The position numbers and the translations under genes were made by a program. A stretch of DNA of 64,000 nucleotides from Cyanobacteria bacterium SBLK (GTDB lineage: Bacteria > Cyanobacteriota > Cyanobacteriia > Cyanobacteriales > Spirulinaceae), in contig JAGHZQ010000029.1 in NCBI GenBank assembly GCA_017746715.1, positions 1 to 64,000 on the forward strand, written 5' to 3'. The notes under the pieces are model-generated. The model was not told where the DNA came from. It made no database searches and worked only from the letters and a program-made list of their open reading frames with translations. Positions 10,911 to 63,846 of the stretch are shown here, piece by piece; position 1 is the first letter of the stretch, and every line of letters begins with the position of its first letter.

Positions 10911-11026
10911 GGTTGACATTGTAACTTTTTGCACTTGCCCGCTACAATTAAGTAGAAGTGAGTAATGTTGAAAAACGCAGGATTGGTAACTCCCTGAAAG
11001 ACTTATAATTAAACCATTTTTATTAA

Positions 11027-52227: not shown

Positions 52228-55059
52228 TTAAACCGATAACCAATCAAAAACTTTCTGAAATTCAAAGCGATTGCAGTATTGTTGCAAGGCTTCCGCCAAG
52301 GAATCATCGGAGTGGCGGATTTCCGCAATCTCGCGGGAAATTTCTTCTAAATTGCCGATTATTATTGCGTCTCTCAGTTTGACTTTCAAGATTTGAGGCA
52401 ATGCTCGCATCTTTTCTTGAATAGATGCTTCGGTTTCTTCTTGGCTCGGTGCTTGCGCGAGTTCTTCGTAGAGAAAACGAACTCCGATATGTTCGTGCAT
52501 GGCGGCAAAGATATCTTCTTCTCGAAATGGCTTCCGCATAAACGCATCGCACCCTGCGGACAAAACAACCGCTTTTTCTTCTTCCAAAACACTGGCAGTC
52601 AAAGCAATGATGGCTGTTGCTCGTCCTCGAGCCATCGCTTTAATTTTCTGAGTGGCTTCGTAACCGTTCATAACCGGCATCCGCATATCCATCCAAATCA
52701 AATGGGGCCGCCATGTCTCAAAAACCTCTACGGCTTCTTTGCCATTGCTGGCTTCTTTCAGTTCAAATCCGAGGGGATCGAGCAATTTCACAAACAGTTG
52801 GCGATTGATGACTTTATCATCGACAATGAGGATGCGATAGTGTGGTTGGTTGGGGGCTAGAGCGATGACTTTCCGTTTGTTTTTTTGACTGTCTAGGGTT
52901 TCGGCTTCCACCTCTTCAGCTTGAATCTGAAAGCGAAAGGTCGTTCCTCGGCCAACTTTCGAGGTCACTTGAATATCCCCACCCATCAACTGCACGAATT
53001 TGCGGGAGATGGGCAATCCCAAGCCAGTTCCTTCTTGCGATTGTTTTCCGGTTTCGGTTTGCACGAAGGCTTCAAAAAGCTGGTCGAGTTCTTCCGGGGC
53101 GATTCCGGCCCCAGTGTCTTCTACGACAAAGCATATTTTAATTGTTCGCTCCCCCCTGTCTCCTGAAGTATTGGGAGGATGGAGGGATTGATTGGTGACT
53201 GACAGGATAATGCCCCCCTCCTCAGTGAATTTGATGGCATTGTTGAGCAAATTAATCAACACTTGGCGCAGTTTGACCTCATCGGTGCGAAGGTGGCGGA
53301 TTGTATTGTTTTCTCTCTCTAACAACAATTGCAACCCTTTTGCCTCGGCTTTGAGTTGGAACATGTCGTGGATATCGTTGAGAAGGCAATGTAAGTCAAA
53401 GTTCTTTTCGTTAAGGGTGATTTTGCCAGCTTCGATTTTGGAGAGGTCGAGGACGTTGTTGATGAGAGAGAGGAGGTGTTCGCCACTGCGAGAGATGATA
53501 CGGACATTTTCTTGGTGGTCGCGGGGGAGGGTTGGGGAACGGGTCATGATTTGAGAAAAGCCGAGGATGGCGTTCAGGGGACTCCTCAATTCGTGACTCA
53601 TGTTAGCAATAAATAAACTTTTTGTTTGGTTGGCAACTTCCGCTTTTTCTTTGGCTGCTTCGAGTTCGGCGGTACGTTCTTCCAAGGAGAGAGTCCGTTT
53701 TCGAACCTTCTGTTCGAGATTGACAAATTCTGTTTTGAGTTGAGTTGCCATGTCATTGAATGCTTGACCCAAAACATTCAGTTCTGAGATCGCGCCTTTG
53801 GGTACTTTTTGGTCTAAATCCCCTCGGGACATGGCTTGTGAAGATTGAACCAATCGTAAAATCGGTTGGGAAATCCAACGAGAGGTGTATAATCCCACTC
53901 CGATAACCCCGACCAAGGAAAGAAGCATCAGTAAAATTGTGTTGCGCGTGTTGACGTAAATTTGTGCCATGAAATCCCGTTCGGGAACGACAGTGACGAC
54001 CAACCAATCAATGCCTATACCTCGTTCGTCCGTGTAGGGGAAAACCCGGAGATATTGCGACTCCCCTTCCAAACGAAATTGTAATTGTTGTTCTGCTTCG
54101 ATCTGGTCGAGCCGGCCAAATCGTTCTCCGAGATATTGAGCGCTGGTTTTGACAAGCGGATCGTTAAGCTCTGTCACTGCAATGCGTTCTAGTTTGTCTC
54201 CGTTGGAATCGATGTGAAAAGGCCGTTCGTCAACAGACGCGCCCACTAATAGCCCATTGCGTTCGATAATAAAGATGCGACCGTTCTCGCCAATTTTGAT
54301 GTCCCGTAAAAAATCGCCGATTCCACTGAGGCTTAAGTCGGCGGCCATAACGCCGATAAATTCTCGTTCTTGGTTGTATAGAGCCCGACCTGCTGAAATC
54401 ACAAGAGCTTGAGGATTAATAGTCGGGAAAATATCTGTCCAATAATCGGGTTGTTCGACAGATTGTCGGGCTGCGGCTCGATACCAAGGGCGTTGGCGAT
54501 GATCGTAATTGGGCAGGCTTCCAACTTTGATAAGTTTTGGAAGGTTTGAGTCTTTATCTACCATTGTGTCGAATTTAAAGTAAAGTAACCCGGTACCTGC
54601 TTCTGTATTCCATGTCGATATTCGCTGGTTTCCTCCTTTAGCATCGATCTTGTTAGATTCTTCTGGAGTAAAGGTTATATCGACATAGTTGGGTTCTTCT
54701 GTAGCAAAGGATATCCAGAGAAGCTCTTCAAAATTTTGGTGTTGTCGCAGAAAGTGTTGGGCAAGAATGATATTACCTTGGGGAGACATATCCAAAATTC
54801 CGAGGTCAAAAGCATCACTATTGATGCGATTGAACAAATGAGGAATTTTGAGATAGTCATTGAGTTTACTATCAACCTGTTTCGATGTATCGGCGATCGA
54901 TTGTTGCGCCAGATCTCGCACTGCTTTTTGCCCGTTACGAATGCTTAAATAACCCGTTAAACCCACGGCGATCGCGATCTGAACGACAAAAGGCACGGTT
55001 AATACCGTCCGTAGCTGCCATTGTTGGCGCGTTGGCGAATGGGATTCTCTGGCAGACAT
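52228..55059 (-). CDS. Hybrid sensor histidine kinase (dCache-HAMP-HisKA-HATPase-REC)
   Basis: A 943-residue kinase. TM1 (20-42), a double-Cache sensor with [12 protein letters not shown]2 (about 370-392), HAMP, coiled coil, HisKA with [18 protein letters not shown] (His about 486), HATPase (600-720), and a receiver with Asp in [11 protein letters not shown] (about 790). A ~75-residue helical tail ends in [12 protein letters not shown]. No DNA-binding domain, so the output partner is unknown. Very similar to the kinase at 56526; the RR-kinase gene lies between them on the same strand. Confidence 0.94.
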
Positions 55060-55088
55060 GAGATGATGGCATTTAAAATACTAGTTTG

Positions 55089-56492
55089 TCAATTAAATGA
55101 TACATCACTTGAAGATAAAGGAAGCGCGATCGCAAATTTTGTTCCTTGTCCTGCTTCCGATTCCAACCAAATTTGACCCCCGTGTTTTTCCTCGATAATT
55201 TCTCGCGCGATCGCGAGTCCCAAACCCGTTCCTTTGCCAACTTCTTTCGTCGTAAATAAGCGATCGAATACTTTATTTTTCACTTCCTCAGACATTCCCA
55301 TACCATTGTCTTCAATCCAAATCGTTGCTTGCTCTTTTTCTGCACTGATTTCAGTTTTAACAATAATTTGTTGGGGTTGACAATGGGAAGGATTGTTTAA
55401 AGCCTCATCGAGTGCATCGATCGCATTAGATAAAAGATTCATAAAAACCTGATTGAGCTTTCCCGGAAAACACGCAATTTCTGGCAAATCTCCATATTTT
55501 TTCACGATTTCGATCTCCGGACGCACTCCATTATCTTTAAGACGATGTTTCAAAATCAATAAAGTGCTGTCAATTCCCTCATGAATGTTAAATTTAATGG
55601 GGCGATCGCTATCTCCCCGAGAAAACGTGCGTAAAGAGTAACTAATATTGCGAATGCGATCGGCTCCTTCTTTCATGGATGTAATTGTTTTAGGTAAATC
55701 CTCAATCAGAAAATCTAGATCGATCGCTTCTGTATAATTTCGAATTTTATCATTCGGATCGCCCACTTGCTCTTGGTAAAGTTCGACGAGAGAAATTAAA
55801 TCTCGAACGTATTCTAAAGCATGATGAATGTTGCCATCGATAAAAACTACAGGATTATTAATTTCGTGAGCGACACCAGCAACTAATTGACCCAAAGTTG
55901 CCATTTTCTCATTTTGAACTAATTGGAGTTGAGTGCTTTGGAGTTGCTCCAAATTTAATTTTAATTCTTGATTGGCAATTTCTAATTTATGATTTGTGCT
56001 CTCTAACTGCTCCACTGTATCTTCTAAAATAATATTTTTTTCCCGAATTTGTCGCGCTTGATCTTCTGTTTTACTTTTTAGCTTTTTTTGCAATCGAGAG
56101 AGGGTTAAATGCGTTCTAACCCGCAGAAAAACTTCTTCAGCTTGAAAGGGTTTGGCAATATAATCAATTCCCCCAGCTTCAAAGGCTTTGACCTTATCAA
56201 AAAGATCGTCGAGAGCGCTGATAAAAATAATGGGAATCTCTCGCGTGCGCTCGTCTGCTTTGAGTTTTTGACATACCTCATAGCCATTGAGATCGGGCAT
56301 TTGAATATCCAGTAAAATCAGATCGGGATAGTCATCGAGGTGAATTCCCTGCAGTGCTAAGGTTCCGCTCGGCATCGGACAAACTTCATAACCCCGTTCC
56401 GATAATAACCCCATTAATACTTGCAAATTAGCAGGTGTATCGTCGATGACTAAAATGCTACCTTGTTCTGAATCGATAGAGAGATTATTCAT
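55089..56492 (-). CDS. Response regulator-histidine kinase fusion
   Basis: A 467-residue cytoplasmic protein without membrane helices. Residues 12-130 form a receiver (phospho-Asp D62 in LILLDIQMPDLNG, Lys in FISALDD...YIAKPF). A coiled coil follows (135-205), then a kinase core of the GVAHEINNPVVFIDGN type with HATPase boxes (LNQVFMNLLSNAIDAL, GKGTGLGLAI). It could receive a phosphoryl group from the flanking hybrid kinases. It lies 33 bases downstream of the kinase at 56526 and 29 bases upstream of the one at 52228, so an operon is likely. Confidence 0.93.
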   Translation of the reverse strand: MNNLSIDSEQGSILVIDDTPANLQVLMGLLSERGYEVCPMPSGTLALQGIHLDDYPDLILLDIQMPDLNGYEVCQKLKADERTREIPIIFISALDDLFDKVKAFEAGGIDYIAKPFQAEEVFLRVRTHLTLSRLQKKLKSKTEDQARQIREKNIILEDTVEQLESTNHKLEIANQELKLNLEQLQSTQLQLVQNEKMATLGQLVAGVAHEINNPVVFIDGNIHHALEYVRDLISLVELYQEQVGDPNDKIRNYTEAIDLDFLIEDLPKTITSMKEGADRIRNISYSLRTFSRGDSDRPIKFNIHEGIDSTLLILKHRLKDNGVRPEIEIVKKYGDLPEIACFPGKLNQVFMNLLSNAIDALDEALNNPSHCQPQQIIVKTEISAEKEQATIWIEDNGMGMSEEVKNKVFDRLFTTKEVGKGTGLGLAIAREIIEEKHGGQIWLESEAGQGTKFAIALPLSSSDVSFN

Positions 56493-56525
56493 TTTCCTTG
56501 TAGAGTTATTGTTTCTAGCAATCCA

Positions 56526-59303
56526 TTAAGTATCGTTCAACCAGCTTAAAATTTTCTGATATTCAAAGCGATCGCAGTATTTTTGCAGGGTTTCGGCGAG
56601 AGTGTCGTCGCCTTGGCGAATCGTCGAGATCGCGTCGGCAATTCTGGGTAATTTAGCCGTCATCAAGGCAAATTCTAACTGTTCTTTTAATTCTGGCGAG
56701 AGTCTCTTGACTTTCTCTTGAATTGATGCGCGTGTTTCTCGCATGTCTTGCGATCGCGCGTCCAATTCTTCATAAAGAAAGCGCACGCCTAAATATTCTT
56801 CCATTGTCTTAAAGATATCTTCTTCGCGAAATGGTTTTCTCATGAATTTATCGCATCCTGCCGACAAAACCACGGCTTTTTCTTCTTCGAGGATGCTAGC
56901 CGTGAGAGCAATCACGATCGGCGCTTGTTCTCGAGTTGCGGATTTAATCGTTCGCGTTGCCGTAAATCCGTCCATCACTGGCATTCGCATATCCATCCAA
57001 ATTAAATGCGGTCGCCAACTTTTCCAAATTTCGATTGCTTCTTTACCATTATTGGCTTCTTGGAGTTCAAATCCGAGGGGAGAAAGCAATTTAATTAATA
57101 ATTTACGATTGAGGAGTTTATCGTCCACAACTAAGATGCGATATCGCGGTTGATTGGGTTCGAGGGCAATAACGCGACGTTGGGGTGTGGGAGTTTCGAT
57201 ATCGTTTTTCGCCACGAGAACGGCATTAATTGAAAAAGAAAAGATCGTTCCTTTCCCGACCTGCGATGTTACCTCAATCTCTCCTCCCATTAATTGTACG
57301 AATTTTCGAGAAATGGGCAATCCCAACCCCGTTCCTTCTTGTGCTTGTTTTCCCGTTTCCGTTTGCGAGAATGCTTCAAATAGTTTATCCAACTCTTCCG
57401 GTGCAATTCCCGCTCCCGTATCTTCCACCTCAAATTTTATGGTTGTCGATCCCCCCTGCTCTCCTCGATCGGAGGGGTATCGGTCGGACGGGGGGATTTG
57501 GCGAGCGATTCTCACCGATATGCTGCCTTCTTCAGTAAATTTAATGGCATTATTAATTAAATTGATTAAAACTTGGCGCAGTTTCATGGCATCGGTACGG
57601 ATATATTGCGGAACTTCACCAATTTGCTCGAATAAAAGTTGCAAATCTTTGGTTTCTGCTTTCAAGTGCAGCATATCTTCAATATCCCCGAGCAAGCGAT
57701 GCAGATCGAAATTTTTCTCATTAAGCGTAATGCGTCCGGCTTCAATTTTGGACAGGTCGAGAACGTTATTAATTAAAGTTAGAAGGTGCTCGCCACTGCG
57801 ATTGATAATACTGACATTTTCTTGATGTTCTTTGGGTAAGGTTGGGGAACGAGTCATAATTTGCGCGAAGCCGAGAATGGCATTGAGGGGGCTTCTCAAT
57901 TCATGGCTCATATTGGCAACAAAAGCGCTTTTGGCTTGATTGGCGACTTCCGCTTTTTCTTTGGCGATCGCCAGCTCCGCAGTTCTCTCTCGAACTCGAC
58001 TTTCAAGGGTGTCAAAAGAGGCCTTGAGTTTGAGTGCCATGCGATTAAAGGCACTGGCAAGGGTATTGAGTTCGGCGATCGTCCCACCAGAGACTTTGCG
58101 ATCCAAATCTTCCCGAGAGAGCGCTTCTGCCGATCGTGCCAAACCTAAAACCGGTCGAGTTACCCAACGGGAGGTATACAGCCCGAGGAGCGCGGCGGCA
58201 ACGAGGGCGAAAAAGCACAGTAAAATCGTATTGCGGGTGTTGACATGGATTTGCTCCATAAAGTCGGCTTCGGGGACGACGACGATGATGAGCCAATCCA
58301 AACCATAATCGTCTTGGAAAGGGGAAATACTGGCAAATTGGCGCTGGCCGTCGATGGTAAATTCGATTTGATTTTCCTTCTCAATGGATTCGAAATCGTC
58401 AAACTGTTCTCGTATCGAGAGAGCTGTCTGGCGAATGAGGGGAATCTTGCTCTCCATCGCCGCCAGTTTTTCTGCTTCTTCTCCTTCTGGGGCTTCGATA
58501 TAGGGCAATTCTTCGGTGGAACTGCCCACTAAAAAGCCATCGCGCTCGATCGCAAAGACTTTACCCGTTTTTCCCACTTCGATCTGACGCAAAAATTTAC
58601 CAATCCCCTCGAGGGAAAAATCGACGGAGGCAACCCCGAGGAGTTGTCCTGTATTATCGTAAAACGGCTGGCTGGCCGTGATGCCCAAAATTCCTTCGGC
58701 ATAGATATAAACATCCGTCCAAGCGGCTTTTTTCGCTTTGATGGCGGCGCGATACCAAGGACGCTGACGCGAATCGTAATTGTTGGCGACGATCGCGCCA
58801 TCTTCTTCGTAGTAGGGCTGTGAAGTCTCATAACCCTTTTTATCGGCGACATAACTATGCAAATCCCCGGGTTGGAAATTGGGTGTATAAGCCAGTTCGA
58901 TATTGTTTTCGCTCAGATCGAATAATCCCGCTCCTGCATAACCGCCAACGGCATTGCCAAAATAAATAAAAAGCGGGACGTTTTGACCAAAACTTTGACT
59001 CTGATTCCAAAAATGTCGCATCAATTCTGCGCGATCGTTAATATCAACTAAACCCAGATGAATTGCCCTTGCATTCATTTGGTTGATTTCAATGGGTTTG
59101 GCCATAAAACTCGTCAAGTGGAGTGTAACGCGAGAGGCAACTTCTCGACGCAATTGGCCGGCAACATCATTCACTGCTTTTTGACCGTTACGGATGGAAA
59201 AGTAACCCGTTAGGCTCACTGCTATGATAATTTGCGCGATAAAAGGAATGACGAGAATGAGGCGCAAAGGAAAGAAATGATGGGTTTTTCGTTGAGAAGC
59301 CAT
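56526..59303 (-). CDS. Hybrid sensor histidine kinase (dCache-HAMP-HisKA-HATPase-REC)
   Basis: A 925-residue kinase with the same order as its paralogue at 52228: TM1 (RLILVIPFIAQIIIAVSLTGY), Cache with RPWYRAAIKAKKA, TM2 (TILLCFFALVAAALLGLYTSR), HAMP, HisKA with [19 protein letters not shown], HATPase, receiver with [11 protein letters not shown], and a C-terminal helical tail ending EYQKILSWLND. A TTG two codons upstream (59309) is an alternative start with better spacing from AGAGG. The first gene of the downstream three-gene cluster. Confidence 0.94.
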   Translation of the reverse strand: MASQRKTHHFFPLRLILVIPFIAQIIIAVSLTGYFSIRNGQKAVNDVAGQLRREVASRVTLHLTSFMAKPIEINQMNARAIHLGLVDINDRAELMRHFWNQSQSFGQNVPLFIYFGNAVGGYAGAGLFDLSENNIELAYTPNFQPGDLHSYVADKKGYETSQPYYEEDGAIVANNYDSRQRPWYRAAIKAKKAAWTDVYIYAEGILGITASQPFYDNTGQLLGVASVDFSLEGIGKFLRQIEVGKTGKVFAIERDGFLVGSSTEELPYIEAPEGEEAEKLAAMESKIPLIRQTALSIREQFDDFESIEKENQIEFTIDGQRQFASISPFQDDYGLDWLIIVVVPEADFMEQIHVNTRNTILLCFFALVAAALLGLYTSRWVTRPVLGLARSAEALSREDLDRKVSGGTIAELNTLASAFNRMALKLKASFDTLESRVRERTAELAIAKEKAEVANQAKSAFVANMSHELRSPLNAILGFAQIMTRSPTLPKEHQENVSIINRSGEHLLTLINNVLDLSKIEAGRITLNEKNFDLHRLLGDIEDMLHLKAETKDLQLLFEQIGEVPQYIRTDAMKLRQVLINLINNAIKFTEEGSISVRIARQIPPSDRYPSDRGEQGGSTTIKFEVEDTGAGIAPEELDKLFEAFSQTETGKQAQEGTGLGLPISRKFVQLMGGEIEVTSQVGKGTIFSFSINAVLVAKNDIETPTPQRRVIALEPNQPRYRILVVDDKLLNRKLLIKLLSPLGFELQEANNGKEAIEIWKSWRPHLIWMDMRMPVMDGFTATRTIKSATREQAPIVIALTASILEEEKAVVLSAGCDKFMRKPFREEDIFKTMEEYLGVRFLYEELDARSQDMRETRASIQEKVKRLSPELKEQLEFALMTAKLPRIADAISTIRQGDDTLAETLQKYCDRFEYQKILSWLNDT

Positions 59304-59554
59304 TGCCAAGTTTAACCTCTAAGAATAGGGGATGAATTCACGATTTAAATTTCTGACACGAGCCGCACCTGAAAAATAATTTGATTGGGATTCAGCGAGA
59401 TTTTTTCTACATTCTATTTTAACCAGATCGATTCATCTTGCCAACAGTTACCCCGTATTAGAATTGTCGATTTTCAAGTGAATTCGGTCTTGTCTTAAAT
59501 TTTCAACAATAACAATAAAATTGCGATGGCAGTCGAACGAAAAAGTTATTAGAA

Positions 59555-59693
59555 TAGGACTTACGCAGTGTCATGCAATTTCGCCCCCCTAGCCCCACAA
59601 ATCTGGGGGGAATCGGAGTCAGAGACGGCGAATCAAATTCGCCAAGTTCAATCGGTCTGTTGGGAGATTTAGGGGGCGGATGCGTAAGTTCTA
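59555..59693 (+). mobile_element. MITE-like element with 13-bp inverted ends
   Basis: TAGGACTTACGCA (59555-59567) and TGCGTAAGTTCTA (59681-59693) are inverted repeats with a single mismatch. Inside, CGCCCCCCTA and TTAGGGGGCG add a further inverted pair. The 139-base element has no transposase gene. GGACTTACGCA ends are typical of cyanobacterial insertion sequences and derived MITEs. Confidence 0.7.
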
Positions 59694-59910
59694 AGACAAT
59701 CAAAAATATCTCAATTTTTTATTTTCTCCCGTCAAAAAAATTATCGGTAGGCGATCGTGAAGTAATATCAAATCCGTTTAATGAGCAAACATTCATGAAA
59801 CCTCTGAACTGAGGTATAGCGCTCATTCTTATGGATTAGAAAAGCACTTTTCGGGATAGAGACAATCAAAATATAGCGAAGCCCTGCGCGGAGGTCACTG
59901 AGCGATGCCG

Positions 59911-59990
59911 AAGTGGGGGTTTGGGGGCGGCGCTGCGCCCACAATGGGGGGGGACTGGGGGGGAGATCGCCCCCCCATAAACTTTGGATT
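59911..59990 (+). repeat. G-rich dispersed repeat, copy 2
   Basis: GTGGGGGTTTGGGGGCGGCG continues through GCGCCCACAATGGGGGGG and CGCCCCCCCATAAACTTTGG. It matches 50010-50095 through most of its length, including the flank ACTTNNGATTT. Confidence 0.8.
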
Positions 59991-60076
59991 TGGAGAGGAT
60001 GTTAATGACTATTCTAACCTTAGATTTTACCCAACATTAATGATAATCCATTTTCCGGATTTGATATAAATTATCT

Positions 60077-62149
60077 TTAAACCAGTTTATTGGCTCGATC
60101 CAGTCGAGGGTTTGAAGTATTGGAAAACTGATGTAAGGGAATTTCAATGATAAATTCCGTTCCCTTTTCCAGACTGGAAGTGCAATGGAGTTTACCTTTA
60201 TGTCGTTCGGTAATAATGCGATAACCAATCGACATTCCCATGCCCGTCCCTTTGCCGATCGCCTTGGTGGTAAAAAAGGGATCGAAAATGTGCGGTAAAA
60301 CCTCATTGGGAATGCCAGAACCGTTGTCTGCGATCGCGATTTGAATCCATTTTTCTGCGATAGTCCGCGTGCGAATTTTAATGCAGCCTGGAGATAACTC
60401 TACTTCTTCAGGAGTGAGTCGTTCTGTTTTTTCTTCGATCGCATCGATCGCATTATTGAGAATATTCATAAACACCTGATTGAGAGCACCGGGACAGCAC
60501 TCCACTTGCGGCAATTCCCCGTAGTCTCTAATCGTTTTAATGGCGGGTTGCCCCGGTTTTGCATTCAAACGGTGTTGCAAAATCATTAAGGTACTGTTAA
60601 TCCCTTCATGAATATCTGCCAACTTGATTTCCGATTCATCCATGCGGGAAAAATTCCGCAGCGATCGCACGATTTCGCGAATGCGTTCGCTTCCCGTTTG
60701 CATAGAGGCCAGCATCTTGGGTAAGTCCTGTTGCAGAAACTCCCAATCGATGGCTATCCCTCGCTCTTCAATTGCCGATACGGGTTGCGGATAGTATTCT
60801 TCGTAGAGTTTTACAAAAGCGAACAAATCCTCAACATAAGTTTGAGCGTGAATGAGATTTCCATGAATGAAGCTCGCGGGATTATTGATTTCGTGGGCGA
60901 TTCCCGCCACGAGCTGCCCCAAACTCGACATCTTTTCGCTATGAATCATCTGAGCTTGGGTATTTTTCAATTGAGTCAGAGTCGTTTCTAGTTCGGAAGT
61001 CCGCTCCCGCACTCGATTTTCGAGTTCCTCAAAAGCGGTTTTGAGTTGAACGGCCATTTGATTAAACGTATGGGCGAGCAAGCCGACTTCATCTTCCGTC
61101 GTCACGGGCACGGTTTGGCCGAGATCTCCGGCGGCTAATTTCTTAGCCGCTATCCCGATCGCTTCGATGGGACGGACGATATTGCGAGAGAGCAAGTATA
61201 CCCCCACCAGCAATACGCCCACGGAAACGATCCCGATGCCGATAATATTGCCCGCCAATTCCCGAGCGGGGGCCAGTGCCTCGACTTGCGATATTTCCGC
61301 CAGCAACGCTAAATTTTGGTCGGGAAGCCATCGATAAACGCCAATGACGGGAATGCCCGCATAGTTGCGATAGAGCGCAAACCCGTCTTGGCGGGAAATC
61401 GCGCGCTCGATGCCAAGGCTCATCGCACCCCCTGCCAGTTCTGCCTCTCCTTCCCCGGCGATCGAGACGGCATTGTCGCCGCTCGTCCCCACCAAATAGG
61501 TGGCCCCCGTATCCCCCAAACCCGTGTTATTGCGAATGAGAGCGTCTATCTCTGCCAATTGCAAATCCACCGTTAACGCTGCCATTTTTACGCCTGTATC
61601 GTCAAAAATGGGAGTGGCGAGGGTTATTGCGGCTTGACCCGTTGCTTTGGAGATGTAGAAGGTGGGAATGATGGTCTCTGCCGCTTCTGGTGGAAAGTAA
61701 GTGGTGGGACTGCCCAAGGGTCGAAACTTACCTTCGATTTCAGGTGTATTGGCGGCAAGAATGACAAAACCCCCATTAGTAGTAATGCGAATATCCCGCA
61801 TATTGGGCTTGGCTGCCGTCCAATCGACGAGATATTCCTTGAGGGTTCGATCGGCTTCGCGATAGGCTGGCTCGTCGGGATTCACCGTCAGCAGAACGGC
61901 AACGGCTTCTCGCAATAACGGCTGTTTGCTGGTGAGGAGAACATCTCGCAATTGATTGTTTTGCCATTCCTCAAGCTGATAGCTTTTGAGGGAAGTGGCA
62001 ACAGTCAAGCGATCGCGAATATCTTCAAGGAGAACTTTTTGAGCCTGCAATTGGGCAGCGGTTGCCACGACTCCCACTACGGTTGCCGATAAGACGGAAA
62101 AAGAGAGAACCAATTTGGTCAAGAGGCTTTTTCTGTTCTGCAATGGCAT
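60077..62149 (-). CDS. Cache sensor histidine kinase
   Basis: A 690-residue membrane kinase. TM1 (about 8-30, [21 protein letters not shown]), a Cache sensor (35-290), TM2 (295-318), HAMP (320-375), coiled coil, kinase core of the [16 protein letters not shown] type (His about 427), and HATPase with [16 protein letters not shown] and [10 protein letters not shown]. No receiver. Start at MPLQNRKS (62149), 7 bases after the solute-binding gene, so the two are almost certainly cotranscribed and the kinase may respond to the bound solute. Confidence 0.92.
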
Positions 62150-62156
62150 CTCTTCT

Positions 62157-63581
62157 TTAACTCCACTGGGCGAAAATATCTTGAATTTGCGTAATCGCGC
62201 GATCGGCGGCTTCTTCTGGGGAAAGGCCATCTTGGAGAATGCTCAGAAGGGTTTTTTGCCAGATTTTCTGGGCGTTCACCTCGCTATAGGCGGGATGCAA
62301 GACTTGCCACGGCGGACGCGTCGCGCCGCGTTGTATGGCGATCGCGGCGGCAAAATGGGGATCGTCGGGATCGTTCCAAAAGGCACTTTCGAGGAGGGGT
62401 TGCAAGGGAGGAAGAAAACGACCTTTGAGACTTTCCAGCCAGAGGCTCAGATGTTCGGGTTGTAAAAAGTAAGCTAAAAACTGTTTGGCCAGTTTTGGGT
62501 GAGGGGCATCGGCGAAAATAGCGGTTTGTTTGACTTCAATCTCTGCGGTCATGGGAGTACCATCCAGTTTATCCGGCCAGCCTCGGGTTGCAATTTGCCG
62601 GTAATAAAGATTGCGAGAACGTTGATTGTAGGGATTATTGGGCAACTTTTGCGTGAGGGGAATGGAAAGATTGCCATTGAAAACCATTAAGGATTGTCCT
62701 TCGAGAAAACTGATATTATTGCCAGAATCCCGCCATTCTGTTGCGCCAAGGGGGACGTAACCCTCCTGATAAAAGCCCGCATACTCGGCGAGGGCATCGA
62801 TTAACCCCTGACGATTGGACGGGTGCTCCAGCAGCAACGCACCGCTTTTATTGAGAATGCGAACGTTACGAGCATCGAGAAAATGAACGAATCCCCGGGC
62901 CATATCGTTACCCTTGTCAGACATGGACAAGCCCATGCCAAAGACATCTTTCCGTCCGTTTTGGTGCAAGCGATCGCTCGCTTGCTGCCAAAATGCCCAA
63001 AATCCCTGCCAATCTCGGGGAATATCGGTGTCGTCCAATCCCATTTCTGCCAAGAGATTGCGCCAGTAGTGAATGTTGGTGGTTGCGACTCCCAAAGGAA
63101 CGGCATAATAACTGCGCTCTTGGCTGACATGATTTTGATAGTAGACTCCCGATAGGGCAATTTCGTTAAAGGAGTCTTGCAAGGGTTCGAGGAGTGCCGT
63201 CACGTCGGCGAGTTTGCCCTGCCAAGCCCAACGGGGAAATAGGCTGCCGGGTCCGGCATTATCGGGGTAAGCGATATCGGGAACGCTCCCCGTGGCGATC
63301 GCTTTTTCTAACTCGGAGGCGATCGCCGTTCTGGGAATGAGTTTGAGGTTGACGCTCATCCCTGATTGCCGCTCCCATTCGTCCGTTAATTTCACGATTG
63401 CTTCGTTTTCTTCTGGCAGCAAACCTTGAGTCCACCAAATTTCCAGAGAATTTTGCGCCTTTGCCTCGGGATCGATAGCAGAAGTGCTAGGTGGGGATTG
63501 AATTTGAGTATGGGAACAAGTAACAATTCCTAATGCAAAACCAAAGAGAAAAAAAAGAGTTAGTATATTTTTGATTTTCAT
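62157..63581 (-). CDS. ABC-type sugar solute-binding lipoprotein
   Basis: A 474-residue extracellular solute-binding protein of the family-1 (carbohydrate) type. Signal peptide with a lipobox-like GIVTC (Cys about residue 22, Thr before it being slightly atypical). The binding fold shows LEIWWTQGLLPEENEAIVKLTDEW, GSVPDIAYPDN and YAVPLGVATTNIHYWR. No permease or ATPase genes follow; instead it is immediately upstream of a Cache kinase. It may supply that sensor, or an ABC permease encoded elsewhere. Confidence 0.9.
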   Translation of the reverse strand: MKIKNILTLFFLFGFALGIVTCSHTQIQSPPSTSAIDPEAKAQNSLEIWWTQGLLPEENEAIVKLTDEWERQSGMSVNLKLIPRTAIASELEKAIATGSVPDIAYPDNAGPGSLFPRWAWQGKLADVTALLEPLQDSFNEIALSGVYYQNHVSQERSYYAVPLGVATTNIHYWRNLLAEMGLDDTDIPRDWQGFWAFWQQASDRLHQNGRKDVFGMGLSMSDKGNDMARGFVHFLDARNVRILNKSGALLLEHPSNRQGLIDALAEYAGFYQEGYVPLGATEWRDSGNNISFLEGQSLMVFNGNLSIPLTQKLPNNPYNQRSRNLYYRQIATRGWPDKLDGTPMTAEIEVKQTAIFADAPHPKLAKQFLAYFLQPEHLSLWLESLKGRFLPPLQPLLESAFWNDPDDPHFAAAIAIQRGATRPPWQVLHPAYSEVNAQKIWQKTLLSILQDGLSPEEAADRAITQIQDIFAQWS

Positions 63582-63815: not shown

Positions 63816-63846
63816 AAAAAAGCCCGTTCTTGGTAAGAATCGGGCT
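63816..63846 (-). terminator. Terminator of mtnA
   Basis: On the minus strand AGCCCG-A-TTCTT pairs with AAGAA-CGGGCT across a short loop and is followed by six T. It sits 25 bases after the mtnA stop. Confidence 0.88.

Follow-up and report, generated by a model that had tools for sequence, protein, structure and literature searches.

Solute-binding proteins (SBPs) of the sugar type belong with ABC importers, and the occurrence of such a protein directly ahead of a sensor kinase raises the question of whether it serves a transporter or a receptor. This arrangement is found in Cyanobacteria bacterium SBLK, within the 64,000-nucleotide stretch analyzed here (the window; contig JAGHZQ010000029.1, positions 1 to 64,000).

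Organization of the locus

Five open reading frames, predicted with our own script, lie on the minus strand between positions 52228 and 63581. The first encodes an SBP lipoprotein of 474 aa (62157..63581) that matches SBP_bac_8 (E = 2e-20) and SBP_bac_1 (E = 2e-12), and its stop codon is followed after exactly 7 bases, as the first-pass annotation had given, by the ATG of a 690-aa histidine kinase (60077..62149). An alternative start of this kinase (ATG 62230) was rejected, since the homologs also begin at the position of ATG 62149. The kinase carries dCache_1 (E = 5e-9, below Pfam's cutoff), HAMP, HisKA, and HATPase_c domains, and its ectodomain with the two membrane helices (61175..62149, minus strand), here CacheA, is the candidate partner domain of the SBP. 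Beyond a 767-bp gap (59310..60076) come the hybrid kinase HHK1 (56526..59309; dCache-HAMP-HisKA-HATPase-REC), for which, judged by eye, the ATG at 59303 is a more plausible start codon than the TTG listed, the soluble receiver-histidine kinase REC-HK (55089..56492; REC-HisKA-HATPase), and a second hybrid kinase of the same architecture, HHK2 (52228..55059). In the proteins of the block, the H-box, the G-boxes, and the Asp motifs of the receivers all lie where they would be expected. The description of four consecutive kinases holds for reading frames, strand, and coordinates, but the four are not evenly consecutive because of the gap, which contains no open reading frame of at least 100 aa and only one degenerate inverted-repeat pair and is a probable boundary between two transcription units. 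A domain search of the five-gene block detected neither permease nor DNA-binding domains, as had been claimed from the first reading. Between the SBP gene and the gene upstream of it, which we take to be mtnA-like, a stem followed by a T-run (63822..63845, minus strand) suggests that the SBP gene begins a transcription unit; this is a weak element, read by eye and absent from the pattern scan, and the promoter and terminator pattern scans did no better than with shuffled sequence.

The AF2 model of the SBP (pLDDT 88.7) has oligosaccharide SBPs as its closest structural neighbors (Z scores of 34 to 37), and the N terminus carries a hydrophobic segment, in keeping with an exported protein of the SBP fold. 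Cys22 is invariant across the five paralogs of this genome. The earlier name, sugar-binding lipoprotein, is based on fold and family and is overstated as regards the ligand. A PDB sequence search with the SBP profile returned distant sugar SBPs and many maltose-binding-protein fusion constructs, which are uninformative as to the ligand, and naming the ligand from these matches was dropped. The AF2 model of the CacheA ectodomain (pLDDT 88.1) has the dCache fold and resembles the ectodomains of chemoreceptors and kinases with Z scores reaching 19.4; the corresponding PDB sequence search yielded only chemoreceptors at low similarity, plus two irrelevant hits to Mediator. The R-x-W-Y sequence, part of the dCache_1AA binding motif (R126, W128, and Y129 in PctA; PMC10104139), is found in none of 63 CacheA sequences, and CacheA does not qualify as an amino acid sensor of this type.

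Conservation of the SBP-CacheA pair

The genome, of 7.44 Mb and with a minimum of 154 matches to HATPase_c, contains five copies of the SBP at four loci, each of which ends in a same-strand CacheA kinase. Because a kinase follows at all four loci and does so again across cyanobacteria, the link between SBP and kinase is more than chance. Elsewhere in this genome, one additional locus encodes a fusion of CacheA with a cyclase. A second SBP copy with permeases and without kinase linkage, which the first-pass annotation had named as the refuting case, was sought and not found, and a permease-linked paralog of this family in the genome was rejected, all copies being kinase linked. A MalF/MalG-type permease pair occurs at none of the four loci; one of them, on C28, has a single divergent OppC-type permease.

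The recurrence of the link in other cyanobacteria, which had been proposed as a check, is evident: CacheA is the next same-strand gene at 71 of 95 distinct cyanobacterial SBP loci, a set of loci that are not mutually independent and that may favor linked cases, because the search for relatives was seeded with five kinase-linked SBPs and the best 80 of 98 relatives were kept. Two of the 24 loci without an adjacent CacheA are contig ends. Among the 71 linked loci, the CacheA gene has a kinase core in 64 and lacks it in 7, and dCache_1 is detected in 69. Four loci in which another frame hid the SBP (L099, L103, L105, and L110) are outside the 101-locus count and were handled in a separate reading of neighbors, and L115 and L127 were removed as duplicates of L041 and L087. 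Five Nostoc loci have a solitary SBP, and those read are preceded by a ROK gene and have an OppC-type permease in the vicinity.

A scan of the phylum, blind to neighbors and with the window SBP as the sole query, found 27 matches in 18 of 292 genomes. CacheA follows on the same strand at 18 of the 20 loci outside the SBLK genome (12 kinases and 6 transmitter-less proteins). In these 292 genomes, the SBP is present in 18, CacheA in 22, and both in 17 (Fisher P = 3e-22). At the family level, the SBP was found in 5 of 13 genomes, including that of SBLK, and the other four all have a CacheA kinase next to it. The pairing of the SBP with this kinase has strong support.

Co-divergence and exchange of output modules

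Over 63 loci, SBP distances correlate with those of the ectodomain (r = 0.60) far more than with those of the kinase core (r = 0.19), with a bootstrap range of 0.32 to 0.50 for the difference; this set leaves out 8 of the 71 linked loci, which have no kinase core or are too short, and the correlation shares a species-tree background for which the kinase-core comparison controls only in part. On a quick SBP tree (LG+G4, SH-aLRT only, with L094 left out as too short), there are at least 8 switches of transmitter type, and at least 9 gains or losses are needed for the SBP-CacheA link itself. The outputs at CacheA loci comprise kinases, hybrid kinases, and transmitter-less Cache proteins beside adenylate cyclases (transmitter-less CacheA proteins occur at L118-L120, L122, L128, and L129). 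An exchange of this kind is seen inside the SBLK genome: the C28 kinase is 58% identical to the window kinase in its ectodomain, while its transmitter and receiver are 67% identical to those of HHK2 and 61% identical to those of HHK1, and C28 is, as judged from sequence, a module swap. Since a cyclase and a receiver follow in six related operons, the missing DNA-binding output may mean that cAMP carries the signal. In the Arthrospira-type operon L049, the order is SBP, hybrid kinase, cyclase, and receiver.

A probable two-part receptor

Outside the cyanobacteria, permeases lie downstream of the SBP in 8 of 10 relatives. A lipid-anchor motif, scored heuristically, is present in 83 of 91 cyanobacterial members versus 1 of 10 noncyanobacterial ones. 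The best explanation, with a probability of roughly three in four, is that the SBP and the CacheA kinase make up one two-part receptor. The SBP would have originated as the binding component of an ABC importer for sugars, would have gained a lipid anchor, and in cyanobacteria would have lost its permeases. Held at the membrane, it would bind a small molecule, probably an oligosaccharide or a glycoside, and the liganded form would dock onto the dCache domain that the neighboring kinase exposes in the periplasm, thereby changing kinase activity. The contact between SBP and CacheA would be conserved while the cytoplasmic part is swapped among kinases, hybrid kinases, adenylate cyclases, and transmitter-less membrane Cache proteins. 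At the window locus, phosphate may pass in trans, with REC-HK as a candidate acceptor, and the related operons suggest cAMP as the end signal. The sequence data support the original suggestion, in which the lipoprotein hands its ligand to the kinase and not to a transporter: adjacency is conserved, the ectodomain codiverges with the SBP, the outgroup is permease linked, and the lipid-anchor motif is present. Together, these data suggest that an SBP of the ABC sugar type has become the lipid-anchored co-receptor of a Cache receptor.

Extent of the signaling unit

The first reading went further and saw a phosphorelay hub, in which the SBP and all four kinases would form one unit and the hybrid kinases and REC-HK would process the SBP signal. 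All five genes lie on the same strand, a hybrid kinase and then a receiver-kinase also follow the SBP at the C28 paralog, L036, L106, and L113, and 16 of the 71 CacheA-linked loci have a further same-strand kinase within three genes; however, none of these 16 has a neighbor of the ectodomain type found in HHK1 and HHK2 (CacheB). CacheB is common, with 25 matches in 22 proteins of this genome, one of which adjoins an SBP gene, and R-x-W-Y is present in 12 of the 15 CacheB loci examined among these matches; HHK1 and HHK2 both carry it as R-P-W-Y. Because of the noncoding gap, the commonness of CacheB, and the fact that the trio does not adjoin the SBP in any of the four family-level relatives with this protein, a single hub is unsupported, and we consider it unlikely; the trio is probably a neighboring unit separate from the SBP-kinase pair.

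A weaker form of the claim survives in the recurrence of a hybrid kinase and then a receiver-kinase behind the SBP at C28 and the three other loci named above. HHK1 and HHK2 each have HisKA, HATPase, and a receiver with its phospho-acceptor Asp, and the domain search found no Hpt domain in the five proteins, a further point against the hub. REC-HK, two genes beyond the SBP-linked kinase, may receive phosphate from the hybrid kinases, and other SBP loci have receiver genes as well. The two hybrid kinases, first described as near-identical, are 56% identical over their full length (40% in the ectodomain and 66% in transmitter plus receiver).

Relation to transport

Maltose-binding protein serves both transport and chemotaxis, and by analogy the SBP could feed a transporter in trans and also signal through the Cache kinase. 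SBPs are said to coordinate transport with signaling (PMC11113362), and orphan permeases exist in this genome, but no permease was seen to travel with the SBP at the 71 CacheA-linked loci except the divergent OppC-type one on C28, and such dual use seems rather improbable. We regard as still harder to sustain the view that the SBP remains a transport protein for permeases encoded elsewhere, its place beside a kinase reflecting co-regulated uptake and sensing. The permease-linked outgroup is in its favor, as are two orphan single permease genes (C27 and C49), which are about 30% identical to the permeases of the outgroup and on whose contigs no SBP_bac_1 or SBP_bac_8 match was found. However, none of the five SBP copies stands beside a family-1 permease pair, SBP divergence follows the receptor ectodomain, and a more typical SBP_bac_1 protein without a permease neighbor (C60) is an equally good candidate partner for the orphans. 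Other SBP_bac_8 proteins of the genome do have permeases (C46 and C4). Although neighboring genes need not interact (PMC11113362), it is very improbable that the adjacency is an ancestral gene order passed on incidentally, with no contact of functional meaning, since the SBP-CacheA pairing is kept through the changes of transmitter type, also in the SBLK genome, and the SBP correlates poorly with the kinase core but well with the ectodomain.

Comparison with known systems and implications

The principle of an SBP as co-receptor is already known from XylFII-LytS and CuaDSR. The two-part receptor proposed here is similar also to LuxP-LuxQ, in which an SBP-like periplasmic protein is paired with a hybrid kinase, but LuxP is soluble and binds autoinducer-2. 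LuxQ does not appear in the list of 50 fold matches for CacheA, which excludes nothing. The CuaDSR system of Ruminiclostridium cellulolyticum likewise places a lipoprotein family-1 SBP beside a histidine kinase with two membrane helices; this SBP binds the extracytoplasmic domain of the sensor, and a second SBP serves transport (PMC10384115). CuaDSR differs in belonging to a Firmicute with an ordinary response regulator in the operon (PMC10384115), whereas the cyanobacterial system has a dCache ectodomain, no DNA-binding regulator in the block, and exchanged output modules. In XylFII-LytS, also of Firmicutes, the SBP is dedicated to the sensor kinase and the complex is a heterotetramer in which two SBPs join two sensor domains, but the sensor domain is a four-helix bundle and not dCache (PMC10384115, PMC9769921). 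GlnH-GlnX-PknG of Corynebacterium glutamicum combines a lipoprotein SBP with a kinase-less membrane relay protein, resembling the SBP with transmitter-less CacheA, but its output is a Ser/Thr kinase, and GlnX has helical-bundle and CHASE3-like domains (PMC9769921). On the other hand, for the Pseudomonas aeruginosa kinases AgtS and AruS, the SBPs encoded nearby showed no binding to the sensor domains (PMC11113362).

Prokaryotic pentameric ligand-gated channels occur as fusions with, or as gene neighbors of, PBP-I, PBP-II, or Cache domains (PMC549065). On a side branch of the family, L126 and L090 have an SBP, a PBP-I domain, and a channel together next to this SBP family, a likeness that is absent from the window locus.

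We found no description of this cyanobacterial SBP-CacheA family in the open-access literature searched. In the parts covered, PMC9602780, which has Synechocystis and Anabaena among 49 model strains, contains nothing on it, and PMC4795631 contains nothing on PBP fusions. SBP-driven receptors are considered widespread, but characterized couples are few: a 2021 review counted 11 SBP-kinase couples, as cited in PMC11113362, and the groups listed for them in the covered part of that source are proteobacteria, firmicutes, and archaea.

The gene order, the co-divergence, and the natural domain swaps point to one directly testable contact surface, in a phylum rich in sensors without known ligands. 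If the two-part receptor is real, it would exemplify how a component of a transporter becomes a component of a receptor, with the transporter-linked relatives still extant, and SBP-CacheA would be a ready-made exchangeable receptor head. A broader picture, which we offer tentatively as possible rather than probable, is that of a portable head set upon phosphorelay kinases, upon class III adenylate cyclases (as fusions or through membrane Cache subunits that lack a transmitter), and, within one branch, beside a PBP-fused pentameric channel; photoautotrophs would have built oligosaccharide or glycoside sensors from a pump-less ABC importer, and cAMP would be a common end signal. Should the ligand prove to be a sugar or a glycoside, the system would bear on how filamentous cyanobacteria sense neighbors, hosts, or mat polysaccharides.

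Organization of the locus

The window covers the initial 64 kb of its contig (C41, 135.6 kb, in a genome of 7.44 Mb and 123 contigs) and carries a minus-strand series of genes whose most upstream member encodes the sugar-type solute-binding lipoprotein (SBP; 62157-63581, minus). The dCache-HAMP-histidine kinase gene (60077-62149, minus) begins 7 bases past the SBP stop, and this spacing, already proposed in the first-pass annotation, is borne out by the two gene boundaries. A gap of 767 bp, devoid of coding ORFs, separates the linked kinase from the hybrid kinase HHK1 (56526-59309, minus), which is followed by the receiver-kinase REC-HK (55089-56492, minus) and by a second hybrid kinase, HHK2 (52228-55059, minus), the last gene of the series. 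Beyond HHK2, on the opposite strand, lies a gene for an FAD-dependent oxidoreductase whose C-terminal domain is of the glycerophosphate-oxidase type. The catalytic motifs of the window kinases are present where expected. The four kinases had been read as one phosphorelay hub, which is not established, the series being split by the gap; nor are the hybrid kinases near-identical, as HHK1 and HHK2 share 56% identity overall (40% for the ectodomains, 66% for the parts that follow them). The gap holds a degenerate 38-nt inverted repeat (59760-59797 and 60035-60072) as well as C/G-rich repeat-like sequence.

The SBP is linked to one type of Cache ectodomain

The genome has five SBP copies at four loci (the window, a tandem pair on contig C28, C61, and C80), and at 4/4 loci the next same-strand gene encodes a Cache-HAMP kinase. 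The other four SBPs are 38 to 44% identical to the window copy, and Cys22 is invariant. The four SBP-linked ectodomains (CacheA) share 35 to 58% mutual identity, versus only 23 to 27% with the ectodomains of HHK1 and HHK2 (CacheB). As scored from the coordinates of SBP_bac_1 and SBP_bac_8 matches, 4/5 CacheA copies in this genome adjoin an SBP versus 1/22 CacheB proteins (25 hits, three proteins being split in two; Fisher P = 0.0014). Contig C60 (L183:6659-11068, minus) has a second, independent kinase-SBP neighborhood, in which a typical SBP_bac_1 gene comes after that of a CacheB hybrid kinase in the same orientation and the vicinity lacks a permease.

The adjacency recurs in other cyanobacteria, where the first-pass annotation had proposed searching for it. 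The SBP is present in 18 of 292 cyanobacterial genomes scanned (27 matches, none falling between 1e-70 and 1e-20); at the loci from other genomes, CacheA is the next same-strand gene in 18/20, comprising 12 kinases and 6 proteins that terminate after the second membrane helix. SBP, CacheA, and both occur in 18, 22, and 17 of the 292 genomes, respectively (Fisher P = 3e-22). Within the organism's taxonomic family, 5/13 genomes (own included) have the SBP, and the other four all have a CacheA kinase next to it. A scan of named genomes (best 80 of 98 relatives) left 79 loci, 69 cyanobacterial and 10 non-cyanobacterial. In the pooled cyanobacterial loci, duplicates removed, CacheA is next in 71/95, at a median gap of 60 nt (longest-ORF starts); Pfam finds dCache_1 in 69 and HAMP in 42 of these 71 proteins (first 480 residues). 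Two of the remaining 24 loci are contig ends. The other 22 (L033, L048, L050, L051, L053, L063 to L065, L070 to L073, L077, L079 to L081, L083, L090, L094, L096, L126, and L130) mostly lie within nested branches of a quick SBP tree, so the absence of CacheA reads as secondary loss, which such a tree cannot prove. SBP arrays of two or more copies exist at 18/101 loci; in Nostocales cyanobacterium HT-58-2 (L056), five tandem SBPs precede one CacheA hybrid kinase at 10983.

At two loci the gene overlapping the SBP end is of another kind. L126:5993-8302 (minus) encodes Peripla_BP_6 and, C-terminal to it, a GLIC-like pentameric ligand-gated ion channel, and the C-terminal part of L090:9155-11494 (plus) matches GLIC-like channels weakly. 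Four proteins of the own genome (C27, two on C62, and C108) are 48 to 55% identical to the channel part; fusions of this kind (PBP-I-channel) have been described (PMC549065). Upstream of the SBP locus in Arthrospira (L049:547-3800), 82-codon ORFs recur regularly every 151 bases in what looks like a long repeat array.

SBP divergence follows the ectodomain

Pairwise SBP distances at 63 loci correlate with those of the ectodomain (Spearman, 0.60; reached by 0/999 permutations) versus 0.19 for the kinase core, with a bootstrap difference of 0.32 to 0.50. Pairs whose SBPs are more than 0.35 apart give 0.54 and 0.06, respectively, and the contrast shrinks inside one core type (HK2, 49 loci; 0.64 versus 0.40). 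Thus, the SBP tracks the ectodomain, not the kinase. The SBP tree requires at least 8 changes of core type and at least 9 of the CacheA link itself. On C28, the SBP-linked kinase has a CacheA 58% identical to that of the window and a transmitter plus receiver 67% identical to HHK2 and 61% to HHK1; judged from these identities, it is a natural swap of the output behind a window-like CacheA.

Outputs vary and include cyclases. A fifth CacheA of the own genome is joined via HAMP to a Guanylate_cyc domain (631 amino acids, C61), and CacheA-cyclase fusions exist in genomes G157, G262, G255, G131, and G211. The order SBP, CacheA hybrid kinase, cyclase, receiver is found in six loci (L032, L049 of Arthrospira, L054 of Roseofilum, L111, L112, and L117); the L112 cyclase carries GAF domains, and the L111 kinase is seemingly split. 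L128 and L129 have, in this order, the SBP, a transmitter-less CacheA, and a cyclase, and in L130 the SBP precedes a cyclase. The window SBP is closest to that of L111 (50% identity, G129). The L111 cyclase has an orthologue on own contig C71 (53% identity), which is flanked by a PAS hybrid kinase and a receiver and is accompanied by no SBP of this family. The receiver gene behind the hybrid kinase in L055 (Nostoc) encodes a REC-PAS protein, and a nearby receiver protein in L087 has DNA-binding, Hpt, and GGDEF domains. Given these cyclases and receivers, absence of a DNA-binding regulator is common in this SBP family, for part of which cAMP is a plausible final signal.

Ancestry and ligand

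The 10 non-cyanobacterial relatives (Bradyrhizobium, Burkholderiaceae, NC10/Methylomirabilota, Rokubacteria, and an archaeal MAG) have BPD_transp_1 permeases directly downstream of the SBP in 8/10 cases, the exceptions being a contig end and a Bradyrhizobium locus with no permease. Cyanobacterial SBPs separate from this outgroup (SH-aLRT 99, quick maximum likelihood tree), and N-termini are lipoprotein-like in 83/91 of them versus 1/10 in the outgroup (simple regular expression). The plain reading of these sequences is that a transporter SBP was turned into a lipid-anchored, kinase-linked protein. The SBP may work in transport in trans, because orphan permeases on own contigs C27 and C49 resemble those of the outgroup. 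Solitary SBPs in Nostoc (L063, L065, L070, L071, and L077) follow genes for a ROK-family protein (sugar kinase type) and an OppC-type permease (domains tested in L070 only), which hints at a sugar ligand.

The predicted SBP model (pLDDT 88.7) matches cello-, beta-gluco-, and malto-oligosaccharide binding proteins (Z 34 to 37), nearly tied matches that single out no ligand. CacheA is predicted to have a dCache fold (pLDDT 88.1; Z 18 to 19 to McpB, vpHK1S-Z8, and relatives). The motif R-x-W-Y, described in one account as part of an amino-acid-binding motif (PMC10104139), occurs in 0/63 CacheA ectodomains, so CacheA is probably no direct sensor of amino acids; the motif is present in CacheB at 12/15 own-genome loci checked, including HHK1 and HHK2, which may be such sensors. 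In L117:4302-7475 (minus), and also in L043:3747-4787, the CacheA ectodomain carries a peptidoglycan-binding insertion near its membrane-distal loop; PG_binding_1 was detected in 4/71 SBP-linked CacheA proteins.

Proximity of an SBP and a kinase is no proof of signaling, because AgtS and AruS of Pseudomonas aeruginosa, as described in one report, were unresponsive to neighboring SBPs (PMC11113362). The SBP-to-kinase principle is already known from CuaDSR, XylFII-LytS, and LuxPQ; the cyanobacterial SBP family is a variant of it, marked by a constant SBP-ectodomain pair, changing outputs, and permease-linked relatives.
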